52,610 nt of DNA from an uncultured bacterium (lineage in GTDB: Bacteria; Hydrogenedentota; Hydrogenedentia; Hydrogenedentales; CAILVY01). The notes beneath the pieces were generated by a model that was not told where the DNA came from, made no database searches, and saw only the letters and a program-made list of their open reading frames with translations. Location: positions 1 to 52,610 of the forward strand of contig CALEDJ010000030.1 of the NCBI GenBank assembly GCA_937951485.1, in the 5' to 3' direction. Both the position numbers and the translations under genes were made by a program. Shown here piece by piece: positions 9,021-22,489 of this stretch (the stretch's first letter is position 1; every line of letters begins with the position of its first letter).

Positions 9021-9923
9021 TCAAAAACTGGTCAGCGCCTTGAAAGCCGCGTAGCGCTGGGCGATCTGGTCGGCATCCACTTCAATGAGGCGGTCGGGGC
9101 CGAAGGCTTCACAGGTGAAAGACGCCAGCACGCTGCCGTAGACGACGGCGCGTTTGAGCGCGTCGAAATCCACACTTTCACAGGTCGCGAGATAGCCCAT
9201 GAATCCACCGGCGAAACTGTCGCCGGCGCCGGTCGGGTCTGCCACCGACTCAAGTGGCAGCGCCGGAATGGCGAAGACCTGATCAGCCTCCTGCCCGAAG
9301 AGCAGGCAGCCATGCTCGCCCTTCTTGATCACGACAATGCCCGGCCCCATGGCGCGAATCAGGTCCGCCGCCTGACGCAGATCATGGACGCCGGAGAGCA
9401 TGCGCGCTTCCGAATCGTTGACAAAAATCGCGTCCACCCGTTTGAGTACATCCTGGAGGTCATCCGGAGTGGTGTTGATCCAGAGGTTCATGGTGTCCAC
9501 CCCGGCGAATCGGCGCCTGCTTTGTTCAAGGACTTCGCGCTGCAAGGAGGGATGGATGTTGCCGAGGAAGAGAAACGCGGCTTCCCGGGCCGCTTGCGGC
9601 AGTTTGGGATGGAAATCCGCGAATACATTGAGTTGTGTGTCCAGCGTGTCACGTTCATTGATATCGTCGTGATAACGTCCCGTCCACCGGAAAGTCTTTC
9701 CCGGCGCGCGTTCCAGGCCGTCGGTGTTGATTTGCTTCGATTCCAGCAGGCGCACATGGCGTTCGGGAAAATCATCGCCGATGATGCCGACGAGGTGCAC
9801 GGGACAGAAATTCGCCGCGGCAAGCGAAAAATAGACGGCAGCCCCGCCGAGACCCTCAATGTTCTTCCCCGAAGGCGTTTCAACCGTATCCAATGCGACG
9901 GAGCCGACAACGGTAATGCTCAT
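9021..9923 (-). CDS. PfkB-family carbohydrate kinase
   Basis: This is a 300-residue ribokinase-like sugar or nucleoside kinase. The N-terminus has the family GG motif (GLGGAAVYFSLAAA). The C-terminus has the active-site motif DPTGAGDSFAGGF, with the catalytic Asp. FVNDSEARML is the conserved middle segment. The length is normal and the motifs are intact. It follows the NtrC-type gene by 61 bp on the same strand and may be the last gene of that operon. The substrate is not identifiable. Confidence 0.9.
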   Translation of the reverse strand: MSITVVGSVALDTVETPSGKNIEGLGGAAVYFSLAAANFCPVHLVGIIGDDFPERHVRLLESKQINTDGLERAPGKTFRWTGRYHDDINERDTLDTQLNVFADFHPKLPQAAREAAFLFLGNIHPSLQREVLEQSRRRFAGVDTMNLWINTTPDDLQDVLKRVDAIFVNDSEARMLSGVHDLRQAADLIRAMGPGIVVIKKGEHGCLLFGQEADQVFAIPALPLESVADPTGAGDSFAGGFMGYLATCESVDFDALKRAVVYGSVLASFTCEAFGPDRLIEVDADQIAQRYAAFKALTSF

Positions 9924-9984: not shown

Positions 9985-11373
9985 TCAACTGGCCAGAGAA
10001 TGCGTCTCCTCCGGCGGGATGATGCCAAGTTGGTCCATCTTGTACTTCAATATGCGGCGCGTGGTGCCGAGGGCTTCAGCGGCGCGAGACTGTACATAGT
10101 TGCAGCGTTCCAGCGCGGTGAGGATCATGTGGCGCTCCAGGCGGCGCGTGGCCTCTTCCAGCGAGAGGCCTTCGCAGTCGTCCCATGCGCTGGTGCTTTT
10201 TTCCGGGGAGGCGCCGGGAATGATACCGTCCAGATGCTCCGGCAGGATGCGGCGCTCGGCGCCGTGGCAGACCAACAGCCGCTCCACGACATTTTCCAGT
10301 TCGCGAACATTACCGGGCCACGGATAGTTCATGAACCGGGCCATCGCGGCGGGGGCGAACTCGCCCACACGGGCATTCACCCTCGGCCCATGCATGGCGA
10401 CAAAATGCGCCGCCAGCAGCGGAATATCCTCGCGACGGGCGCGCAAGGGCGGCAATTCAATGGGAAACACATTGATTCGGTAGAACAAATCCTGACGGAA
10501 CGTGCCTTCGGCGATGGATTTCTTGAAATCACGATTGCTGGCGCAGATGAAACGCACGTCCACCTCGACCAGTTTGGCGCCGCCGACGGGATAGAAACGA
10601 CCGTCTTCCAGCACACGCAGGAGCGCCGCCTGCGCGCCCATTGGCATTTCGCCGATTTCGTCGAGGAAAAGCGTTCCCCCGTCGGCGATTTGCATTTTAC
10701 CCATTCTCGCCTCGATGGCGCCCGTGAAGGCCCCTTTTACGTGGCCAAAGAGTTCGCTCTCCACCAGACTCGGCGGAATGGCGCAGCAGGACAGCGGCAC
10801 GAAAGGAGCATCTTTCCTGCGTCCTCCGTAGTGAATGGCGCGCGCCAGCAAGTCCTTGCCCGTCCCCGTTTCGCCGAGGATCAGCACTGTGCTGTCCACC
10901 TGCATGGCCTGGCGCGCCAGCGCCAGGGCGCGCCGGATGACCGGAGATTCGCCGACGATCTGATCAAATCCGCTTGATTCCAGTTCGCGCAACGCGCCCA
11001 GTTCGCGTTTCTCACGGACTTCCGCCAGGGTCCGGTCAACCAGAGAAAGCAGGTCTTCCACGTCAAACGGCTTGATGACGAATTCGCGTGCGCCGCATTT
11101 GATTGCCTTGACGGCGGCGGCGACGGAATTGGATGCGGTGACGACAATCACCGGGGCGGATTCGCCCCGTTCCTGCATCAGCGCGAGCAGTTCCAGGCCG
11201 TGCATGTCCGGCATGGCGAGGTCAAGCAGAATCAGGTCCACATGGCGTTCATTCAAGATGCGCAGCGCGTCGCGGCCGCTGTCCGCGAGCAGCACGCGAT
11301 ACCATCCGCCAAGAATCATGCGGTAGGATTCGCGCACGCTGAATTCATCATCAATCGCCAGTATTGTCTGCAT
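9985..11373 (-). CDS. NtrC-type sigma54-dependent response regulator
   Basis: This 462-residue protein has all three NtrC parts. The receiver (1-120) has Asp8/Asp9, phospho-acceptor Asp51 in [10 protein letters not shown], and the conserved Lys in FVIKPFD. The AAA+ domain has [11 protein letters not shown] (Walker A), the sigma54-contact loop GAFTGA and [13 protein letters not shown] (Walker B). A Fis-type helix-turn-helix ends the protein ([16 protein letters not shown]). The reading frame overlaps the upstream kinase-like gene by 23 bp, so the two are coupled. It should activate -24/-12 promoters when phosphorylated; I found no clear -24/-12 site in the window. Confidence 0.95.
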
Positions 11374-13300
11374 GTTCCGCTCCTTTGGCGTTGGCCGAAG
11401 GTCCCTGTTCCACGGAAGGCAGGCGCATCGTGAAATAAGCGTTCCCCTCGGCGTTCGCCGCCAGTTTCAACTCGCCGTGATGTTCCCGCAGAATGCGCCG
11501 TGCGATGGGCAGGCCCAAGCCCATGCCCCGCTCCCGGCTGCTGTAGAAGGGGAGGAAGACCAGCGATTCGTCCTGTTCGGGGATGCCCGGGCCGGAATCG
11601 GCCACACGGATTTCCGCATGGCCGTTTTCTTTGCAGGTGGTCACGGTGATCTTGCCGCCCGAAGGTGTGGCGTCAATGGAATTCTGCACCACATTGCGCA
11701 ACGCTTCCGAAAAATATTCGGGATCGATTTCCGCCTCGGTCTGCTCCGCCCCCCACTTGGTTTCCAATGCGATGGATTTAGCGGCAAGTTCCGCCTCAAA
11801 CGATTTCAGAATATTGCGCACCGTGTCGTTTACGTTGCAGCGCCGCAGGGTGAGTTGCGGATTCCTGGAAAACTCAAACAGCGTTTCCACCACGCGGTTG
11901 ATGCGTTCTATCTCCTTTTGGACAACGTCGCTGAACGCCTCCCGAAAATCCTCGGAATCGTACTTGCGCGGCAACAGTTGCGCGAAGGTGTTGATCGCCA
12001 CCATGGGGTTCTTGATTTCCTGTGCCACCCGTGCGGACAGATACTCCCAGAAGGGGCTGTTGGCGATGTCCTCCGAAGCGGTGTACGGTTCCGCCGCTTC
12101 GGTGAAGTGCACCACCACCCCGCCGCCGCGCATGGGGGCGGCGTACAATTCCAAATCCTTCTTCACGGCCGGGTCCCGGATGATTTGCCGCCGCCGGGGT
12201 GCGTTTTCTTCCATGGCGCGCAGGGCTACGTCGGCGAAGGCGGACCCCAGTTTCTGCACGCTCCTGCCCTTCATGTCCGCCGCGCGGATTTCAAGAAGCC
12301 GTTCTGCGGCCGGGTTCATCATGCCGATGCTGCGATCCGGCAGGACAGTGACCACGCCCGCCTCGAGATGCGCAATCGTCTCATCGAGTTCGCACCGTAA
12401 TCCTGTGTCGGCCATCCGAATGGCCGCCCGTTCAAAAGCCATCGAAGTGGCGCGCGCCACCAGTGTCAGCAATTCCCTTTCTTCACGGGAATAGTCCGTC
12501 CCGCAGGCTTTTTCACCCAGCACCACGGCTCCGAAGACCCGGCCCTGGCGCAGCAACGGGGCGGCCAGACGCCCGTGAAGCACTTGCAGTTCCTTCAGCG
12601 CTTCGGGGCGGCCTTGTATGCCGTCGCGATCAATGAGGCTGGCGTGTTCGTCAAAGCAACGCATCAGGCCGACCCCATAACTGAGTTGAATCTGCTGGGT
12701 GATTGAATCCGAAAGCCCCGAACTGGCCGCCACCCGCACCGCGCCCTCCCGGTCCAGCAACACGGCGCAACGTACCGCATCAAAGATGTCTGCCGCGGAT
12801 TCCGCCAGGCTTTCGCTCAAGCGGACCGGATCGTCGCAATACATCGCGGCGCGGCTGAGCCAACGCAAGGCCATCCGGTGCTGATTCAACGCTCCCTGTT
12901 CAGGGAGGGGCGCGCCAGGCTCCTGCATGGGCGGACGAGCAATGTTTCCGCCGCGGGCGCACAGAACCTCGATCGTTTCACGCAGTTTATCGCACGAGAA
13001 CGGCTTTATCAGCAATGCGTCCGCACCGGCCCGGATCAGTCCCGCCTGGGTGACCGAATCGCCCCGGCCGGATAAAGCGACCACGGGGGTGGTCGGGGCG
13101 ATTGCCTTCACCTGCGCCAGCGCCTGAGCGCCCAGATTGGGGGCGTCATCCACCAGGATCACGTCTGCCTGGATTGAAACCAGACGCCGACCCGCGCCAT
13201 CCACCGTCGGCTCGAAGATCAGCAAATCCGACTCGGACAGTGCCGCCCGCAACGTTTCACAAAGCGCCTGATTCGAGGCTATCACCATGATCACGTTCAT
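11351..13300 (-). CDS. Receiver-GAF-PAS-kinase-like protein lacking the phospho-acceptor His
   Basis: The protein has 649 residues. Its N-terminal receiver-like domain (1-115) has Asp51/Asp52 and Lys99 but an unusual VDDAPNLG loop. A GAF domain (about 140-295) and a PAS-like segment (about 300-400) follow. The HisKA region reads LSARVAQEIKNPM, so the H-box His is Gln427 (codon CAG). The ATP-binding part looks intact: NVVQNSIDA (N-box), DSGPGIPE (G1) and GMGLGLPIARRI (G2). I infer either a pseudokinase working with the 838-residue kinase encoded upstream, or a phosphatase. It overlaps that gene by 4 bp and the NtrC gene by 23 bp. Confidence 0.9.
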   Translation of the reverse strand: MNVIMVIASNQALCETLRAALSESDLLIFEPTVDGAGRRLVSIQADVILVDDAPNLGAQALAQVKAIAPTTPVVALSGRGDSVTQAGLIRAGADALLIKPFSCDKLRETIEVLCARGGNIARPPMQEPGAPLPEQGALNQHRMALRWLSRAAMYCDDPVRLSESLAESAADIFDAVRCAVLLDREGAVRVAASSGLSDSITQQIQLSYGVGLMRCFDEHASLIDRDGIQGRPEALKELQVLHGRLAAPLLRQGRVFGAVVLGEKACGTDYSREERELLTLVARATSMAFERAAIRMADTGLRCELDETIAHLEAGVVTVLPDRSIGMMNPAAERLLEIRAADMKGRSVQKLGSAFADVALRAMEENAPRRRQIIRDPAVKKDLELYAAPMRGGGVVVHFTEAAEPYTASEDIANSPFWEYLSARVAQEIKNPMVAINTFAQLLPRKYDSEDFREAFSDVVQKEIERINRVVETLFEFSRNPQLTLRRCNVNDTVRNILKSFEAELAAKSIALETKWGAEQTEAEIDPEYFSEALRNVVQNSIDATPSGGKITVTTCKENGHAEIRVADSGPGIPEQDESLVFLPFYSSRERGMGLGLPIARRILREHHGELKLAANAEGNAYFTMRLPSVEQGPSANAKGAEHADNTGD

Positions 13301-15813
13301 GTGCTGACCCTTTCAACGGCCTCTGTATGCGGCATCAGGGGAAGGGTGACCGTAACGGTCGTCCCCACATTTACCACGCTGCTCACGTCAATTTCTCCGC
13401 CATGTTCCATCACGATGCCATGAACGACGGACAGGCCGAGGCCGCTCCCGTCCGTCTTGGTCGTGAAGAAAGGCATGAACAGTTGATCCATGTCTTCGGC
13501 GCGAATGCCGCAGCCCGTATCCGCCACGACGACGCGCACACAGGGCGCATCAAAAAGCGCTGCCTTGCCTTTGCGCGCCAGATGTGTCCGCACGTAGTCC
13601 ATTCTGATGCTCAGACGTCGCTGCGCGGCGCCTTCCATCGCGGTGATGGCGTTCAACACCAGATTGAGAAAAACCTGGTGTAAATGCTGTTCATCACCAT
13701 GGACCGGGTGATAGATGTCAGGGAAATCGGTAAAGACTTCCACTTGAGCCTTCTTGATCTGGTTGTCCGTCAGGGCGAGCACCTCCTGGATGATGCGACG
13801 CAGGTCGTGCGGCGCGAATCGCACGGGCTTCGGTCGGGCAAAATCAAGCAGCCGGGAAACGATGGTGTCAATACGCTGCACTTCCGGCGGCACCACCTCG
13901 TTGAATGTCCTGCGGAAATCCGCATCTTCAAAACGGTGCGGCAGCAATTGCGTGAACGTCTTGATGGATTGCAGCGGGTTCTTGATTTCATGGGCCATGC
14001 CCGCAGCCATGATGCCGATAGCACTCAGACGCTCTGCGCGCTGCATGTTGGATTCGAGCCGCTTGATTTGCGTCATGTTGTAGATGAGCACCGTGGCGCC
14101 GCGCAGTTCGTCTTCGGGGGCGTCAAAGTAGGATGACGCCATCGCCACGGGTATGTTTTCGCCGTCGGGGCCGGTGATGACGGTTTCCACATCGCCGATG
14201 CTCCGCCGTTCTCGCAGCGTGTATCGGAGCAATTCGGCGGTCTTCGGTTCCAACGCATCCACGGTCATGCCCGGCCGGATATTTCCGAGCATCTCCTTCG
14301 CCTCTTCATTCACCGTGGTGATGACGCCCGCATTGTCCACGGCCACCACGCCGCCCCGCATGCTGCTCATGATGCGCTCCAGGTGCAGATTCACTTCTTT
14401 GAGTTTGCGGTAGAGGCGGGCGTTCTCAATGGCGGTGGCGAGCGCCGCCGCTATCGTGGCGAAAACTTCCACGTCTTCGTGAATGTAGATGTCATGGGTG
14501 TTTTTCTCACCCACCACAATCATTCCGAGCACGCCGGCGGTGGTTTTCAGCGGCGCCACCAGCCATGCGTCCATCTCCGCCAGATGCTTCGCGAGGCGCA
14601 TGCTGTCGCGGGTGGGGCGTCCGTGAACGATTTCCTCCAGCACCAGCGGCTCAGGGTGCTTTTCCAGATACCGCAGCAGAAAATCCAGATTGATGTCGCG
14701 CTTGCCGATTTCCTCCGGACGGGTCGAGTACTCCGTCATCAGCACGCCGGGTTCCTTTTCGCTTGCCAGCAATACCCGCACATTGCGCGCGCCAATCGTA
14801 TGACGGATGTCCTCGATGGTCCGCTCGAGCAGTTGGTCCAATTGGACGAAACGCGCCGCGTTGCGGCTGATGCGTTCAATGAACGCCTTGGAGTCGTAGC
14901 GCCGGTGAAGCACCACCCGGTCCAACAACAACTGCACCCGTTCCTTCAGGGGCTGAATGACCAGCACTACCACCAGCGCGGCCAAGGCAGTGGTGATCAA
15001 ATTCCCGCCACGCCCCCCCGTGCTGACAAACCAGTGCATCCCGGAGACCACCACGAGGAAGGTCGCAATAACGAATCCCGTTACGACTGCATAGACCGTC
15101 GTTCGGGAGAATATCACCCAGATGTCCAGCAGATGGTAGCGCAGCATCGAATACGCCAGACCGGCCACCATCAACATGACAAAACATGGACCGTATACCT
15201 CGAGCGTTCCCAATCGCAGCGCGGGCGCCAACACGTTGGTGGACAAAGCCAATAGAGAGACAACCAGAAAATTTGTCAGGACATGCTCTATTTGTCGCCG
15301 TTGGATGCCGATGGACTGGCGAACCTTCCGGATCAGATTTGAGAGCGAGAATACCAGCGCAACTCCCGCAACCACGCCGTACCCGAAAAAAATGGGACCA
15401 TAGCGCACCAGGGGGGGATGGTCGGCAAAAAGTTCTACATGATCAATGTACCAGGGCGAAAAAGCCCCAAGGGAGAGAAACACGGCGCCGCCGTACAAAA
15501 AGCGCAAGACCCAGCGATTGCCTTCAAAACGCTGATAAGGGAAAATGACGATGAAATGGTAGAACACCGCCGGCAGGAAACTGGCCACCACGAAAGTCAT
15601 TCTTATCCAGAAGGACGCCATGAGGGGGGAGTGACTGTGAATAACGGCCAGCACCCCAAGCGCCCAGAGCGACAGATTCGCTGTCAACAGGGCGAAACGA
15701 CGATGCGTCCGACGCCACGGATTGCTGAAAAACACCGCGCCTCCCAGCAATGCGCTGGACAGCGCCGACAACAGGATCAGCGTCGTGGCCAATAGGGGAT
15801 TGGGCTGCATCAT
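13297..15813 (-). CDS. Membrane sensor histidine kinase (7TM-GAF-PAS-HisKA)
   Basis: The protein has 838 residues. Eight or so hydrophobic segments lie within residues 5-290. A GAF domain (about 310-465) and a PAS domain (about 475-585) follow, then HisKA with phospho-acceptor His608 (GMAHEIKNPLQSIKTF), then an HATPase with NLVLNAI, DTGCGI and GSGLGLSVVHGI. All catalytic boxes are present. The start codon shares a base with the upstream ketosynthase stop (TAATG), so expression is coupled to it. It is the natural phospho-donor for the NtrC regulator two genes downstream. The layout recalls PrsK of exosortase systems, but no exosortase is seen here. Confidence 0.93.
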   Translation of the reverse strand: MMQPNPLLATTLILLSALSSALLGGAVFFSNPWRRTHRRFALLTANLSLWALGVLAVIHSHSPLMASFWIRMTFVVASFLPAVFYHFIVIFPYQRFEGNRWVLRFLYGGAVFLSLGAFSPWYIDHVELFADHPPLVRYGPIFFGYGVVAGVALVFSLSNLIRKVRQSIGIQRRQIEHVLTNFLVVSLLALSTNVLAPALRLGTLEVYGPCFVMLMVAGLAYSMLRYHLLDIWVIFSRTTVYAVVTGFVIATFLVVVSGMHWFVSTGGRGGNLITTALAALVVVLVIQPLKERVQLLLDRVVLHRRYDSKAFIERISRNAARFVQLDQLLERTIEDIRHTIGARNVRVLLASEKEPGVLMTEYSTRPEEIGKRDINLDFLLRYLEKHPEPLVLEEIVHGRPTRDSMRLAKHLAEMDAWLVAPLKTTAGVLGMIVVGEKNTHDIYIHEDVEVFATIAAALATAIENARLYRKLKEVNLHLERIMSSMRGGVVAVDNAGVITTVNEEAKEMLGNIRPGMTVDALEPKTAELLRYTLRERRSIGDVETVITGPDGENIPVAMASSYFDAPEDELRGATVLIYNMTQIKRLESNMQRAERLSAIGIMAAGMAHEIKNPLQSIKTFTQLLPHRFEDADFRRTFNEVVPPEVQRIDTIVSRLLDFARPKPVRFAPHDLRRIIQEVLALTDNQIKKAQVEVFTDFPDIYHPVHGDEQHLHQVFLNLVLNAITAMEGAAQRRLSIRMDYVRTHLARKGKAALFDAPCVRVVVADTGCGIRAEDMDQLFMPFFTTKTDGSGLGLSVVHGIVMEHGGEIDVSSVVNVGTTVTVTLPLMPHTEAVERVST

Positions 15814-17057
15814 TATGCCACTCTCTTCAGTACCGTCGCGCTGTGGGTGCCGCCGAAACTGACCGCCACCACCAGCGCGGCGTGAATATCGTTTTTTCTG
15901 GCCTGTTTGGGCACGAAGTCCAAATCACATTCCGGATCGGGATCATCCAGGTTGATGGTGGGCGGCACCACGCCTTCGTGCAGCGCCATTGTCGCGGCCG
16001 TCACGCCAAAAAGACCGCCCGCCGCATAGGATTGACCGATCATGGATTTCACCGCCGATACCGGGGCGCGATAGGCATGAGCGCCAAGCACGCGCTTGAA
16101 AGCGTTTGTTTCACAGCGGTCATAAGTTTCCAGCGAAACCCCGTGCGCCTGAATATGATCAATGTCCTGCGGGAGCGTACCCGCCTCAGACAGGGACGCC
16201 TGAATCGCCCGCGCCAGCGCCGTCCCTTCCTTCTCCAGGATCAGGGGATTGCCGCCTTCCGATGCTGAACCATTCCCGGACACCTCCGCAAGAATCCGCG
16301 CGCCGCGCGCGCGGGCGTAATCGGCGCGCTCAAGCACCATCATGCACGCGCCTTCGCTCAGCACGATGCCGTCGCGATGACGGTCGAACGGCCGCATCGC
16401 TTTTTCCGGTTCATCATTGCGTTTGGACAGGATTCCCAGCGAGCAGGCCGTCACAAAAGACGCCAGGAATATCGGCGACTCCGTCGCGCCCACCACCGCG
16501 GCGTCCGCCCGGCCCATCCTGATCTGGTTGCACCCCCAGGCCAGCACATCCAAACCCGTTGCGCAGCCGCTGGCGATCGTGATGGCCGGGCCTTGTATGC
16601 CGATGTCAATCCCCACATGAACCGTGGCCGAATGGCCGGAAAACGCCGATGAGGCGAATTTGCTCACTTTCTTGAAGCCGCCGGATTTGTACGCTTCCAC
16701 GTAACCTTCCCATGCCTCGTCGGGGTTGCCCACACTGGTGCCGACTGCGACTGCGATGCGTTCCGGCCGGTATCCCGCCGTCGGCAGTTCGGCATCCTGA
16801 ACCGCCAAACGCGAGGCGGCCACGGCTTGATGCACATGCCGGTGCCAATGCTTCACGATGCTCTTTTTCATGAAGTCTTCCGGGCGGAAATCGCGAAGTT
16901 CCCCTGCAATCTGACAGGGCAATGCAGATACATCAAAGCGCTCTACCCGGCCAATGCCCGAACGTCCCGCTTTGATCGCATCCCAGAATGCCTCACGCCC
17001 CATGCCATTGCACGCCATCGCCCCGATTCCCGTAATGACCACCGGTTCCCACTGCAT
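15813..17057 (-). CDS. FabF-like beta-ketoacyl synthase with altered active site
   Basis: This 414-residue thiolase-fold protein aligns with FabF along its length. The nucleophile is Cys165 (ASGCATG), the first His is His305 (QAHGVSLE) and the Lys is Lys337. The second catalytic His, normally in a GHxxGAAG motif (H340 in E. coli FabF), is Gln342 here (KSMIGQSYAAGG, codon CAA). Asn-containing GNGSASEGG replaces the usual acyl-pocket loop. Family knowledge says loss of this His strongly lowers decarboxylative condensation. It lies first in a TAATG-coupled chain with two sensor proteins and not with fatty-acid genes. It may be a specialised condensing enzyme or an acyl sensor; the latter is my inference. 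Confidence 0.9.
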   Translation of the reverse strand: MQWEPVVITGIGAMACNGMGREAFWDAIKAGRSGIGRVERFDVSALPCQIAGELRDFRPEDFMKKSIVKHWHRHVHQAVAASRLAVQDAELPTAGYRPERIAVAVGTSVGNPDEAWEGYVEAYKSGGFKKVSKFASSAFSGHSATVHVGIDIGIQGPAITIASGCATGLDVLAWGCNQIRMGRADAAVVGATESPIFLASFVTACSLGILSKRNDEPEKAMRPFDRHRDGIVLSEGACMMVLERADYARARGARILAEVSGNGSASEGGNPLILEKEGTALARAIQASLSEAGTLPQDIDHIQAHGVSLETYDRCETNAFKRVLGAHAYRAPVSAVKSMIGQSYAAGGLFGVTAATMALHEGVVPPTINLDDPDPECDLDFVPKQARKNDIHAALVVAVSFGGTHSATVLKRVA

Positions 17058-17063
17058 ATCGCT

Positions 17064-17201
17064 CTACTTCCATCGCTGCTGTCCGGTCCTGGCGTCGCCC
17101 CAGATGCGCGCAAGGAACCCGGCAATCACCGAAATCCAACTCCAGCCATGCGTCCAATGCGTCAGCGCCTTGGATATCGAACTGCTCAAAGTCGGATTCA
17201 T
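17064..17201 (-). CDS. Possible 45-residue hydrophobic peptide
   Basis: A 45-codon frame begins MNPTLSSSISKALTHW and contains the aromatic, hydrophobic stretch WSWISVIAGFLARIW, then a basic end. It stops 6 bases before the ketosynthase ATG. GGAGG lies 11 bases before its ATG, slightly far. An overlapping two-codon frame (ATG GTA TGA) lies closer to that site. It might be a small membrane peptide or a leader. No homologue is known to me and the frame could be chance. Confidence 0.35.
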   Translation of the reverse strand: MNPTLSSSISKALTHWTHGWSWISVIAGFLARIWGDARTGQQRWK

Positions 17202-17261
17202 ACCATCACTGACCTCCAGGTAAAAGCCTCGTCAGCCGCACGCACCGCGGCTGCATGGTTC

Positions 17262-18962
17262 TCAGTTGCCGACCGCCGCCAATGTCGAAGCGAAGCGGCG
17301 AAAAGCCGCCGATTCCAGCGCAATGCCCGCGCGCTCATTGAACGTGGTCGTCATTTTCGCCAGGGCCGAAGCGTCCAGTGTCGCCAATACCTCGCGCAGT
17401 CGGCGATAAAACGTCTCCTCATCGCCTTCGTACCCGGACACCCGGGCCATCAGAAATTCCTGCGCCGTGCCGCCCGGGCAAATACCGAGTTCGATGATGT
17501 CATGCAGCAAATCCGCATGTTCCATCGTCATCCGGCCCCGGCTCCAGCCCGTCATGCGGTAGGGCAACACGGGAATGGGGTCCGCCAAAGACACATAGGG
17601 AGCATCCTGCCCAATCGCCCACAACGGGAAATAATCATGATTGATTCGATACCCGAATTCGGGCGCGCGGTGCATCCAGACCGAATCCGGCTTCAGCCTG
17701 GGCGGGGCAAAACGGACCGCGCCCGGACGGCTGCGAATCAGCAGGCGCAGTGTTTCCGCGCGTGTATGATAATCGTCCATCGGGCATGGAAAGGTGCAGC
17801 GAAGCGTCACAAAGATGCCCGCCTTGCGATAAGCGCAGACCACCCGCTCGATCTCCGATACGCTGAAGTTGCGGCCGTAGAAATCCTCCAATAACCGCTG
17901 ACTTCCAGTGTCAACGGAAAAACATATGCTCCGGCATCCGGAGGATGCCAGGGCTGAAGCCGCCGCCTCCTCCGCATGGCGAATCGCCCCGTAAAGGCTG
18001 TATTGCATCCGCCAGCGCTGGGCGCCAACTTCCTTCGCCAGGCCGATCAATTGCCCCCCCGGCGTTTCGCTGCCGCGTATGTGAAACGTAAACACGCCGA
18101 ATTGCCTTGTCAACAACGCTGCTTCGGCGCACGCCGCTGCAGGCGATTTCATCCGAAGCGATCCCCCGCCATGTCCTGGACGTCGGTCGCCATGCGCCAC
18201 GTGCAACGCCCCGCGCGTCTGATCCACGGTGAAGAGCAGAAACTTTCCATCCCCATGCACTGCTGGATACGTGGAAGCGTCATAGCAGGGCATGGGAAGC
18301 GTGTCCAGCGATATGCCGTTATGACCCGCGCCCCGACGGGGACGACCCGCATCCAGATATAACAAGCCGGGAACTGAAGCCCATTTTGATTCTTGTCTTA
18401 TCTGTGACGCCCATTCCGGCACAACAATCTCTTCATCCCCTTCGATGGCTGCGTCAAACACGCCGGACACCCCAAGAAGGATCGCTCCATAGTCCCGCGC
18501 GTGACGCCCTGCCACCGCTGTGCGGACAGCCGGTTGTTGCTCCCGAACTTCCCGGCATACTGATAGTGCTTCTCGGAAATCCAGTTCATCATCGGCCAGA
18601 AATACCATGAAATCCACCGCCCCGGCGCTCAGCAGTTCCGATATCATTTCACGCCGACGCCGGCGAATCGATTCCTGAACAAGGCCCTCCAGAGCGGCGC
18701 CAAACGGCCTGCGGGTAACGCCGTCGCCCATGGCCATCCGCACACCGGCCCCCCCGCCCCTTTCCCCTTGTCTGACCGCCGCCCCCAGCCCTCCGGAAAC
18801 AAAACGCCGCACCGCCCACACCGTCCCGTAATCCACCACATGCGTTTCGTGGCCGGCCGACTGCAAGGCCCCCGCCATTGCCGCCAATTCTCGGCGAGGT
18901 AATAATGACTCCGTTTTCAACGGCATCCCCGGTAAATAGGCCAACACGCTGCGGGTCTTCAT
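17262..18962 (-). CDS. B12-binding/radical-SAM-like protein without cluster cysteines
   Basis: The protein has 566 residues. The ATG at 18962 is chosen because GGAAGGTGA precedes it; the frame stays open to 19043. The N-terminal part (1-190) looks like a cobalamin-binding Rossmann domain without a DxHxxG motif. A radical-SAM-type barrel follows, with recognisable linker and strand motifs (SVDTGSQRLLEDFYGR). Where B12-radical-SAM enzymes have TSRGCxxxCxxC, this protein reads QTRGALHVAHGD. The three cysteine positions are therefore Ala252, Ala256 and Asp259, and no 4Fe-4S cluster can bind there. Radical chemistry is very unlikely. It heads the operon that includes the FabF-like and kinase genes. 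Confidence 0.82.
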   Translation of the reverse strand: MKTRSVLAYLPGMPLKTESLLPRRELAAMAGALQSAGHETHVVDYGTVWAVRRFVSGGLGAAVRQGERGGGAGVRMAMGDGVTRRPFGAALEGLVQESIRRRRREMISELLSAGAVDFMVFLADDELDFREALSVCREVREQQPAVRTAVAGRHARDYGAILLGVSGVFDAAIEGDEEIVVPEWASQIRQESKWASVPGLLYLDAGRPRRGAGHNGISLDTLPMPCYDASTYPAVHGDGKFLLFTVDQTRGALHVAHGDRRPGHGGGSLRMKSPAAACAEAALLTRQFGVFTFHIRGSETPGGQLIGLAKEVGAQRWRMQYSLYGAIRHAEEAAASALASSGCRSICFSVDTGSQRLLEDFYGRNFSVSEIERVVCAYRKAGIFVTLRCTFPCPMDDYHTRAETLRLLIRSRPGAVRFAPPRLKPDSVWMHRAPEFGYRINHDYFPLWAIGQDAPYVSLADPIPVLPYRMTGWSRGRMTMEHADLLHDIIELGICPGGTAQEFLMARVSGYEGDEETFYRRLREVLATLDASALAKMTTTFNERAGIALESAAFRRFASTLAAVGN

Positions 18963-19060
18963 GCGGTCACCTTCCGATTCGGTCTCCATACCGCGTTGCC
19001 ATGGAAGCACTACAACCTGTGGTAAAACCCAAAGGCAACACATACTACATATCGGTGTTT

Positions 19061-19089
19061 ATCCTATCATGAAGTTCATTTTTGCGCAA
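19061..19089 (-). promoter_or_regulatory. Putative sigma70 promoter of the regulatory operon
   Basis: On the minus strand TTGCGC (19089-19084) and TAGGAT (19066-19061) are 17 bp apart. Transcription would begin near 19054, leaving a leader of about 90 bases before the ATG at 18962. The surroundings are AT-rich. Confidence 0.4.
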
Positions 19090-19338
19090 GTAAAAAATTC
19101 TATACTCCCGAATCCCTATATGTCCGTTCTGCCATAAATTCATAAGTAATTGAAATACAATAATTTACACATGAATGGCGCAATTTGTTTTTTCAATATA
19201 TTGTATCGTTGATGATCACATTTCCTGTATATTGTGTGTCGGGACATGCACGTTTTTGTGCATCAAGCGATGCATCAGGATTCGGGTCAAAGAATCGCGC
19301 GCGTATATCTGCATGAAAAAAGCGCGGCGCCGATCATT

Positions 19339-19797: not shown

Positions 19798-20781
19798 ATG
19801 GCGGATATTCTGAGCCAAGAAGAAGTGGATTTGCTGCTGAGCGCCGTCTCGGAGGGGGATATTACCGCGGCAGAAGAAGAGGCGGAGGCAGCCAGCGAAC
19901 TTCAGTTGGTCACCTATGATTTTCGCCGACCCGAGCGCGTTTCAAAGGAACAACTCAAAGGCCTTCAGAGCCTTTTCGAGGCGTTCGCGCGTGAAGTCAG
20001 CATTCTGTTTCCCCCCTTTCTGCGCACCGTGGTCCGGGTGGATTTGATCTCCATTGACCAACTCACCTATGACGAGTTCATCCTCTCCGTCACCCGGCCC
20101 ACCTCATTGTCCATCATCGATATGGCTCCCCTCGAAGGCACAGCGGTGCTGGAACTCAGTCCTTCGATGGTGTTCCCCATCGTGGACCGCGTACTCGGTG
20201 GAAAGGGAGCGCCACTGGCGGAAACGCGTGAACTGACGGAGATCGAAGACCGTATCATCCAGCGCATCGTGATGATGATGCTGGACAGTCTGAAGCGTTC
20301 CTGGGAACAACTGATCGAATTCAACTTGAGCGTGGTCCAGCAGGAAAATGATCCCTTGATTGTGCAGATTGTGGCCGGCAGTGAAATGGTTGTGTTGGTC
20401 GGCTACGAAATTCACATCGGTGAAACGGTGGGCGCCATGAATTTCTGCATTCCGCTGATGGTGTTGAATCCCATTCTTGACCAGATTTCCCAGCAGGCGC
20501 ATTTCTCCCGCAAGATGACCCCGGAAATGGCGAAACTGGCGCGGGCGGTGATAACGAAGACCATGGTAAAGGCAAGGCTCCCTATTGATGCCATTCTGGG
20601 GCACACGCATATCAGCCTGGAGCAGATTGCCCACTTGCAGACGGGTGACGTGGTTCTCCTGGACAGTTCTCCCCATGATCCGATCACATTGGAAGTCGGC
20701 GGCGTGCCGTGTTTCAAAGCGATTCGCGGAAGACGCGGCGAACAGAGCGCCGTGCAGATCATCTCGTTCACCCAGGATTAG
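19798..20781 (+). CDS. fliM: Flagellar motor switch protein FliM
   Basis: The protein has 327 residues, the usual FliM length. The N-terminal CheY-binding motif is DILSQEEVDLLLSAVSEGD. The CheC-like middle domain (about 45-230) includes the conserved LSPSMVFPIVDRVLGG. The C-terminal SpoA domain (about 250-325) includes LQTGDVVLLD. FliM forms the middle of the C-ring and controls rotation direction. It is the first gene of the block and fliN/fliY follows 11 bp later. Confidence 0.96.
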   Translation: MADILSQEEVDLLLSAVSEGDITAAEEEAEAASELQLVTYDFRRPERVSKEQLKGLQSLFEAFAREVSILFPPFLRTVVRVDLISIDQLTYDEFILSVTRPTSLSIIDMAPLEGTAVLELSPSMVFPIVDRVLGGKGAPLAETRELTEIEDRIIQRIVMMMLDSLKRSWEQLIEFNLSVVQQENDPLIVQIVAGSEMVVLVGYEIHIGETVGAMNFCIPLMVLNPILDQISQQAHFSRKMTPEMAKLARAVITKTMVKARLPIDAILGHTHISLEQIAHLQTGDVVLLDSSPHDPITLEVGGVPCFKAIRGRRGEQSAVQIISFTQD

Positions 20782-20792
20782 AGGATTTCGGA

Positions 20793-21731
20793 ATGAAAGC
20801 AGACGCGGCCAGGATCATTGTGCAAGGCTTCTTGAAGGGCGTGTTCGATGTTTTTGACGCGATGCTCTCGCGGCATTTCGAACACAAGACCGTCGAGATT
20901 GTGGAAATTACATTAGCCCAGATGGAAGAACTGATCGGCAGATGTCCGGCGGTTTTTCAAGGGCGCGTCAAAAGCGGCGAAGGGGCGGCTCTCTTGTTGT
21001 TTTCTGAAGCCGACGCCGTGCGGATCGCCGGCATAATGCAGGGAAAAGAATCCGAACTGCCGACTTTGGATAATGCCACCCTGACAATCTTGCAGGAACT
21101 TGCCGGGGCCGCCCTGGGCGGGGCTGTCACCAACCTGAGAGAACTCGTGGGAAAAAGCGCGGAACCTTTGAACAACGTACACGCCGCTGTTTTCGATGCT
21201 TCCGGCGCCACAGCGCTCATGGATTTGGTCGGCCCAAAACCCACAGCGGCGCTTTTCAGTTTCGACGCCGGAGAAGATTTTTCCGGCGAAGGCGCTTTGG
21301 TTTACAGTGCATCCTTGGAACAATGGGTTCCTGAAAGCGTGCTTAAGGGGGGGGTTCCCGAGGCCAGGAAGGCGAGCACGTTGACGCCGGACGAAGTGTC
21401 TGATATTTTGCGCGGTTTTACAGGGCCAGGGGAGACGCCGTTCGCGGGCGCCCCCGGGGCAGTGGAACAACCCCGCAATCTGGACATGGTGTTGGATATC
21501 CGGCTGGAAGCCACGGCCCGTCTGGGCCGCGTGGAAATGCCCATCGCCGAGATTCTCAATCTGGGGCCGGGTTCCATCATCGAGGTCGGCCATCTCGTGG
21601 ACGAACCGGTGGAACTGCTCATCAACGGCAAACTCATCGCGCGCGGCGATGTGGTCGTGGTGGATGAAAAATTCGGGCTGCGCATCACGGAAATCATCAG
21701 CACGCGGGCCAGGATCGAAAGCCTTCATTGA
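20793..21731 (+). CDS. fliN: Flagellar motor switch protein FliN/FliY
   Basis: The ATG at 20793, behind GAGG, gives 312 residues, longer than plain FliN (about 130). The N-terminal 170 residues look like a CheC-type domain, as in FliY. The helix LQELAGAALGGAV lacks the Asn of the CheC phosphatase motif, so CheY-P hydrolysis is doubtful. A linker rich in Pro and Gly precedes the C-terminal SpoA domain (about 230-310) with VEMPIAEILNLGPGSIIEV, which builds the lower C-ring. It overlaps the sigma factor gene by 4 bp. Confidence 0.9.
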   Translation: MKADAARIIVQGFLKGVFDVFDAMLSRHFEHKTVEIVEITLAQMEELIGRCPAVFQGRVKSGEGAALLLFSEADAVRIAGIMQGKESELPTLDNATLTILQELAGAALGGAVTNLRELVGKSAEPLNNVHAAVFDASGATALMDLVGPKPTAALFSFDAGEDFSGEGALVYSASLEQWVPESVLKGGVPEARKASTLTPDEVSDILRGFTGPGETPFAGAPGAVEQPRNLDMVLDIRLEATARLGRVEMPIAEILNLGPGSIIEVGHLVDEPVELLINGKLIARGDVVVVDEKFGLRITEIISTRARIESLH

Positions 21732-22489
21732 AAGAGCACGACGAGAAAGAACTCTGGATTCGCCACAAAGAATACGGCGAGGAAAGCGCGCGGGAAGCGT
21801 TAATCCTGCGCCACATGCGAACCGTCAAATATATCGCGGGCCGCATGGCCATCCATGTCCCTCCCAGCGTCGAAATCAATGATTTGATCGGCTGGGGCAT
21901 TATGGGGCTGATGGATGCCATCGATAAGTATGACCACAGGCAGGACGTCAAATTCGCCACCTATGCCTCCATCCGCATTCGCGGCGCCATCATAGACCAA
22001 ATCCGGTCGTTGGACTGGGCGCCCCGTTCCCTGCGCAGCATGGCGCGCAAGATTGGCGCCGCCAGGGAAAAGATCCGGCATGAAAAGGGGGCCGAAGCCA
22101 CGGTCAGCGAAATCGCCGAAACCCTCGGCGCATCCGAGGAACAGATAGACGACGCCATCCAGCAACTGCAGACCGCCCAGATACTTTCGCTGGATGATTT
22201 TCTTCCGTCAGAGGATGAGGGCCAGGAAGGCCGCAAGCAGAGCATCGTCATCAATGCCTCGGCGCCGCACCCCGGCCGCCTTGCCGAACAATCCGAACGG
22301 GTGGAACGCCTGGTCCAGGCTATTCTCCAGTTGCCCGATCAGCAGCAAAAAGTGTTAAACTTGTATTACTACGAAGAATTGACGCTCAAGGAAATCGGGG
22401 CTGTCTTGGACGTGTCGGAATCGCGCGTCTGCCAGATTCACGGCGCGGCCATGAAACGCCTGCGCAAGGTCATGCAAGAGGAAGACTGA
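21728..22489 (+). CDS. fliA: Flagellar sigma factor FliA (sigma28)
   Basis: The protein has 253 residues. The start is TTG, overlapping the fliN stop (TTGA), and no better ATG precedes region 1.2. Sigma70 region 2 (LIGWGIMGLMDAIDKYD, KFATYASIRIRGAIIDQIR), region 3 and region 4 (LTLKEIGAVLDVSESRVCQIH) are all present. The WAPRSLR segment is typical of the FliA/WhiG group. It would direct late flagellar promoters. The placement after fliN resembles Firmicutes-type fla/che operons more than enterobacterial ones. Confidence 0.95.
   Translation: MKEHDEKELWIRHKEYGEESAREALILRHMRTVKYIAGRMAIHVPPSVEINDLIGWGIMGLMDAIDKYDHRQDVKFATYASIRIRGAIIDQIRSLDWAPRSLRSMARKIGAAREKIRHEKGAEATVSEIAETLGASEEQIDDAIQQLQTAQILSLDDFLPSEDEGQEGRKQSIVINASAPHPGRLAEQSERVERLVQAILQLPDQQQKVLNLYYYEELTLKEIGAVLDVSESRVCQIHGAAMKRLRKVMQEED

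Follow-up and report, generated by a model that had tools for sequence, protein, structure and literature searches.

The 52.6-kb stretch of DNA analysed here (the window) comes from a contig of Candidatus Hydrogenedentota, a placement with which the organism names of its closest relatives agree, and contains a two-component operon in which enzyme folds may have been reused for regulation. At the level of sequence, the case consists of a conserved gene order, glutamine residues fixed at catalytic histidine positions in a histidine kinase (HK2) and a ketosynthase-like protein (KS), a second kinase (HK1) and a response regulator (RR) that are both intact, and predicted NrdR-type boxes upstream of the gene for a B12-binding/radical-SAM-like protein (the SAM-like protein). 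We give the model that takes HK1, HK2, KS, the SAM-like protein and NrdR jointly an even chance of being right.

All of these genes are on the minus strand, transcribed in the order SAM-like protein (17262..18962; 566 amino acids from MKTRS), KS (15813..17057; FabF-type by profile, fold and motifs, with Cys165-His305-Gln342 and with Lys337 kept), HK1 (13297..15813; 7TM-GAF-PAS-HisKA-HATPase, His608 intact), HK2 (11351..13300; receiver-like-GAF-PAS-HisKA-HATPase, with Gln427 replacing the phospho-acceptor His), RR (9985..11373; an NtrC-type sigma54 response regulator with Pfam domains Response_reg, Sigma54_activat and HTH_8, and with Asp51 and GAFTGA intact) and a PfkB-family kinase (9021..9923; Pfam PfkB). 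The two histidine kinases were assigned from Pfam matches and orthologue alignments. The PfkB gene, 3' of the regulator gene, also follows it in relatives, and in one family of loci (f7) it comes directly after the SAM-like gene; the PfkB kinase is likely an additional member of the cluster. The residues named in the original prediction (HK1 His608, RR Asp51, HK2 Gln427 and KS Gln342) were all recovered when re-derived from the sequence, as were its junctions: KS and HK1 share one base at a TAATG, HK1 and HK2 overlap by 4 bp, and HK2 and RR overlap by 23 bp. Its picture of closely joined genes holds from KS through RR but not for the SAM-like and KS genes, which are 204 bp apart in the window with no overlap; a 44-codon open reading frame between these two genes was dropped, having no counterpart in genome G002. 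The SAM-like reading frame is open to an ATG at 19043, which had been taken as the start of the gene, but the conserved start is the MKTRS at 18962. Divergent from the operon, at 19798-22489, lie the flagellar genes fliM and a FliN/FliY-like gene and a gene for a FliA-like sigma factor, neighbors that are also present at the G010 and G032 loci.

Orthologues of HK2, 41-59% identical to the window protein, occur in 36 of the 68 species of the phylum. The proposal that the five genes from the SAM-like protein to RR form a conserved unit was borne out, as the same order recurs on one strand, to the contig limits, in all 20 relatives for which loci were fetched, and the HK1 and HK2 genes adjoin in every locus compared.

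HK1 and RR together have the sequence features of a two-component system, namely a kinase with its histidine and ATP site and a receiver with its aspartate. His608 of HK1 is present in 38 of the 38 alignment rows that cover the site, and Asp8, Asp9, Asp51 and Lys101 of RR are conserved in 27 of 27. HK1 would autophosphorylate and pass the phosphate to the sigma54 regulator. In HK2, the codon at 12020..12022 (minus strand, re-derived from the sequence) is CAG, and glutamine occupies the phospho-acceptor position in all 30 sequences of the orthologue alignment, an H box that places HK2 outside the definition of an active histidine kinase. Glu428, Asn431, N540, D568 and the G boxes are invariant among these 30 sequences except for one masked residue, and Pfam finds a receiver-like domain at the N terminus. 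In HisKA proteins, an Asn or Thr at His+4 is needed for phosphatase activity (the Asn being dispensable for kinase activity), the Glu beside the His is needed only for kinase activity, and phosphatase activity is enhanced by the His, which is nonetheless dispensable (PMC3510030). HK2, with Asn431 at His+4 and conserved N and G boxes, has the sequence features of a HisKA phosphatase. Since it keeps the ATP site and the phosphatase Asn, HK2, for which autophosphorylation would be impossible, most likely dephosphorylates the regulator or holds HK1 in check, an action that would be tuned by its own receiver-like, GAF and PAS domains. These features suggest that HK2 is a non-autophosphorylating partner and probably a phosphatase. 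Retention of Glu428, which is unnecessary for phosphatase activity, argues against a pure phosphatase, and DivL, the best-studied pseudo-kinase, is described as also lacking phosphatase activity (PMC4211667).

The most credible of the alternatives, though we still consider it somewhat unlikely, is that HK2 inhibits or activates HK1 within a dimer or complex and does not act as a phosphatase on the regulator. There are precedents in RetS, which acts on GacS via three mechanisms (PMC5992135), and in DivL, which senses a phosphorylated regulator in the CckA circuit (PMC4211667), and both the constant adjacency of the two genes and the Glu428 kept in HK2 point in the same direction. However, HK2 is equally invariant in its phosphatase Asn and its ATP site, and the catalytic cores of HK1 and HK2 form separate clades in the kinase tree (built, like the KS tree below, with FastTree from alignments of moderate size), which leaves a heterodimer unassured.

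KS has the fold of FabF (TM 0.94-0.96), and its orthologues are 56-73% identical to the window copy. The codon at 16032..16034 (minus strand) is CAA and encodes Gln342, which replaces the second catalytic His and, in an alignment with T. thermophilus FabF, falls at its GH. Gln342 is found in 26 of 26 orthologues, each of which therefore carries Cys165-His305-Gln342 rather than the Cys-His-His triad of an elongating FabF, and Cys165, His305, Asp313, Glu316 and Lys337 are invariant in the same 26. The gate residues have changed in parallel (G399 to Ser in 25, D265 to Glu in 24 and N404 to His in 24 of the 26), and the score against TIGR03150, 358.9 bits, is below the 493.75 cut-off for an elongating FabF. 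The ordinary FabF of the source genome retains the His (KSMMGH). In FabF-type ketosynthases the second His is in contact with the carbonyl of the acyl group, and gating-loop residues have roles in the control of elongation (PMC7138838). With the carbonyl-holding His lost and the gating loops altered, an acyl-binding, non-elongating KS is likelier than one engaged in synthesis. An acyl group would be loaded on Cys165 and not elongated, such that KS would report the supply of acyl-ACP or acyl-CoA. Because Cys165, His305 and Lys337 are kept, KS may still be acylated, or may even be catalytic.

If KS were fully active, condensing via Cys-His-Gln, it would make an acyl signal that the 7TM region of HK1 senses. 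We consider this activity unlikely, and with it the view of the operon as one for signal synthesis plus sensing, which is just as unlikely. In its favor, Cys-His-Gln is comparable to the Cys-His-Asn of KAS III and could mimic it, the three retained residues are invariant within a FabF fold, the orthologues are strongly constrained, and there are Latescibacterota loci in which a ketosynthase with an intact CHH triad lies beside a GNAT acyltransferase and tandem kinases. But the residue replaced is the one that contacts the acyl carbonyl in FabF-type ketosynthases (PMC7138838), the loop residues that control elongation are altered too, no carrier protein gene was identified within the operon, and the Latescibacterota kinases are non-orthologous by tree. 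At one of these loci (L144; QNCW01000018.1, 5440-14585), consecutive genes encode a ketosynthase with CHH intact, a GNAT acyltransferase and tandem kinases that keep their His. We rejected L144 as an ancestral, intact version of the operon because its kinases form their own clade in the kinase tree; it appears to be a parallel arrangement at best.

The [4Fe-4S] motif of B12 radical SAM enzymes, CxxxCxxC, is absent from the SAM-like protein of the window. Its site (18186..18209, minus strand, located by alignment with relatives) reads TRG-A-LHV-A-HG-D, with A279, A283 and D286 (numbered from the ATG at 19043) at the aligned cluster positions. The AlphaFold2 model of the protein (pLDDT 86.9) has a predicted B12-binding Rossmann and partial TIM-barrel fold for which the best PDB match in Foldseek is TsrM (E 9.4e-20), and cysteine-bearing relatives match Pfam Radical_SAM and B12-binding. 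CxxxCxxC is kept in six relatives that share the gene order of the window (G014, G036, G044, G050, G054 and G056) and lost in about 27 others, in many different ways. Because these six keep the motif, loss of the cysteines is a variable trait rather than a fixed one. In the KS tree, species that have the cysteines fall within groups that lack them, a pattern that implies several independent losses: about seven would be needed if evolution proceeded by loss only, a count that gene exchange would reduce. Outside the cluster site, GSQRLLEDFYG and a C-terminal A-V-G-N are conserved. The tail (A-V-G-N, or AVAN/AAAN; 17262-17280) is conserved in SAM-like relatives even when they lack the cysteines, and is possibly a docking or degradation signal. 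In several lineages (L034, L040, L041, L042, L044, L045 and L073), the lost cysteine site (18186-18209) contains HxxH, perhaps a metal site of another kind. The ancestor of the SAM-like protein would have been a B12 radical-SAM enzyme, of which most lineages would keep the cofactor- or partner-binding fold.

SAM-like homologues are also present where KS and the kinases are absent (families f7 and f10, and G058; without the cysteines in f7 and G058), indicating a role of their own and leaving a shared pathway putative. The SAM-like gene might then be a separate, NrdR-controlled gene that lies upstream of the signalling operon and outside its pathway, a reading we find doubtful. It would fit the occurrence of the gene without KS, HK1 and HK2 in f7 and f10, the presence of NrdR-like boxes in f10 nevertheless, the 204-bp gap before KS in the window, and a cysteine state that varies while the other genes are invariant. 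Against it, the gene adjoins KS in the relatives examined, at about 140 bp or less and often at fewer than 20 bp, and in G058 it is directly followed by a gene for a copy of the regulator with 58% identity, suggesting a link to the regulator. The ligand relay of the original prediction, from the SAM-like protein and KS to the kinases, is possible but hypothetical.

Gene decay or sequencing error is a far-fetched explanation of the changes, for although the SAM-like cysteine site is degenerate differently between genomes, the same Gln in 30 of 30 HK2 and 26 of 26 KS sequences from independent assemblies, with intact frames and strong conservation, rules it out for those two proteins. Since Gln is present in every KS and HK2 orthologue while the rest of the active site is strongly constrained, the substitutions appear to have been selected, and we take the Gln replacements in HK2 and KS to be fixed traits. 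The original prediction took the three losses to reflect selection for binding or sensing, and named same-order homologues with intact motifs as the evidence that would count against it. Recurrence and selection hold for KS and HK2, among which no such homologue was found, but not for the SAM-like protein, for which the loss is variable and the six cysteine-bearing relatives are homologues of exactly this kind.

A new finding concerns the DNA shortly upstream of the SAM-like gene, where the two best NrdR-type box pairs of the window are located. The best pair (32.7 bits, spacing 31) is at 19191..19237, in the interval between the SAM-like gene and fliM, and the second-best non-overlapping pair in the 52.6 kb (19.2 bits, spacing 32) is at 19010..19057, just upstream of the SAM-like start. 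This DNA shows conservation throughout the phylum and contains a 16-bp box that recurs at intervals of 30-33 bp. The matrix used for scoring was trained only on boxes of other genes and has the symmetrised consensus ACACAATATATTGTGT, which is the NrdR box as reported by Rodionov and Gelfand 2005. NrdR boxes are 16 bp long with a gap of 15-16 bp, about three helix turns apart, and the spacing of the Hydrogenedentota box pairs agrees with this rule (PMC12051234). A tandem-box search of 67 genomes, 61 of which contain an NrdR gene, returned 43 sites, versus 3 for a reversed-pattern control. As a positive control, box pairs were found just upstream of many ribonucleotide reductase (RNR) genes. The predicted operators thus combine two 16-bp palindromic boxes, the NrdR spacing and presence at RNR genes; binding of NrdR to the box pairs is a prediction. 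The regulator of the operon was rejected as the box-binding protein because the boxes also occur in genomes without it, and because consensus and spacing are those of NrdR. No sigma54 promoter was found upstream of the operon within the window.

Box pairs also precede ftsK in five genomes (Pfam-confirmed) and are present at fliF and at genes for a nucleoside transporter, an amidase and an MshEN-type pilus ATPase, as well as at fliQ-fliR, thyX and recF (genes identified by sequence only). By their tandem NrdR-type boxes (loci L261-L340), Hydrogenedentota have a wide predicted regulon, the list of which comes from strict patterns and is hence partial. Class I/II RNR is found in 4 of 40 genomes, the usual RNR being NRDD-type; distant NRDD-type RNRs with ATP cones occur in most genomes (L369, L362-L376), often beside the NrdR gene. 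Under NrdR control, expression of the operon would follow the (d)ATP balance and in this way be linked with DNA replication.

A more ambitious reading, which we put forward as speculative and improbable, is a phylum-specific checkpoint in which a cofactor sensor derived from a B12 radical-SAM protein and a KS-derived acyl-supply sensor would feed a pair of active kinase and pseudo-kinase, with NrdR coupling expression of the pair to the deoxynucleotide pool, coordinating membrane-lipid supply, replication and motility via the sigma54 regulator. The operon itself, in which His-to-Gln changes are fixed in two unrelated catalytic folds and the iron-sulphur site has been lost repeatedly in a third, offers an unusually clean natural test of enzyme-to-regulator evolution. 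A ketosynthase acting as a two-component partner would, if true, represent a novel type of sensor for lipid supply. HK2 provides a natural His-less kinase with which to ask whether phosphatase-only partners exist, and the predicted NrdR link suggests a regulon that extends well beyond ribonucleotide reductases in an uncultured phylum.

Each component resembles a known system and departs from it. KS shares with FabF (3-oxoacyl-ACP synthase II) its fold, length, Cys165, His305 and Lys337, but differs in the Gln at the second His, the altered gate residues and the sub-cut-off score. The SAM-like protein has a predicted fold like that of the cobalamin-dependent radical SAM enzymes TsrM, TokK and CysS, to which its profile matches are weak, but it and most of its relatives lack the cluster cysteines. 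The kinase-regulator pair recalls AtoS-AtoC and NtrB-NtrC, with AtoS the best model for HK1 (281.6 bits) and AtoC the best for RR (413.7 bits), scores that are far below the respective cut-offs of 646 and 714; the operon of the window has, in addition, another kinase that lacks the His, as well as enzyme-like proteins. As in the RetS-GacS network, one kinase would modulate another, but RetS keeps its phospho-acceptor His where HK2 has Gln, and the architecture and regulator differ. DivL has Tyr at this position. HK2 differs from DivL in this residue, in having receiver-like and GAF domains, and in its gene neighbors, which specify an NtrC-type sigma54 regulator, a KS-like protein and a SAM-like protein. 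Nevertheless, DivL, of the Caulobacter CckA-CtrA cell-cycle circuit, is like HK2 a HisKA and PAS protein that has no phospho-acceptor His and works with an intact kinase (PMC4211667), and the likeness extends to the boxes of the window operon, which in relatives are common to division and flagellar genes.
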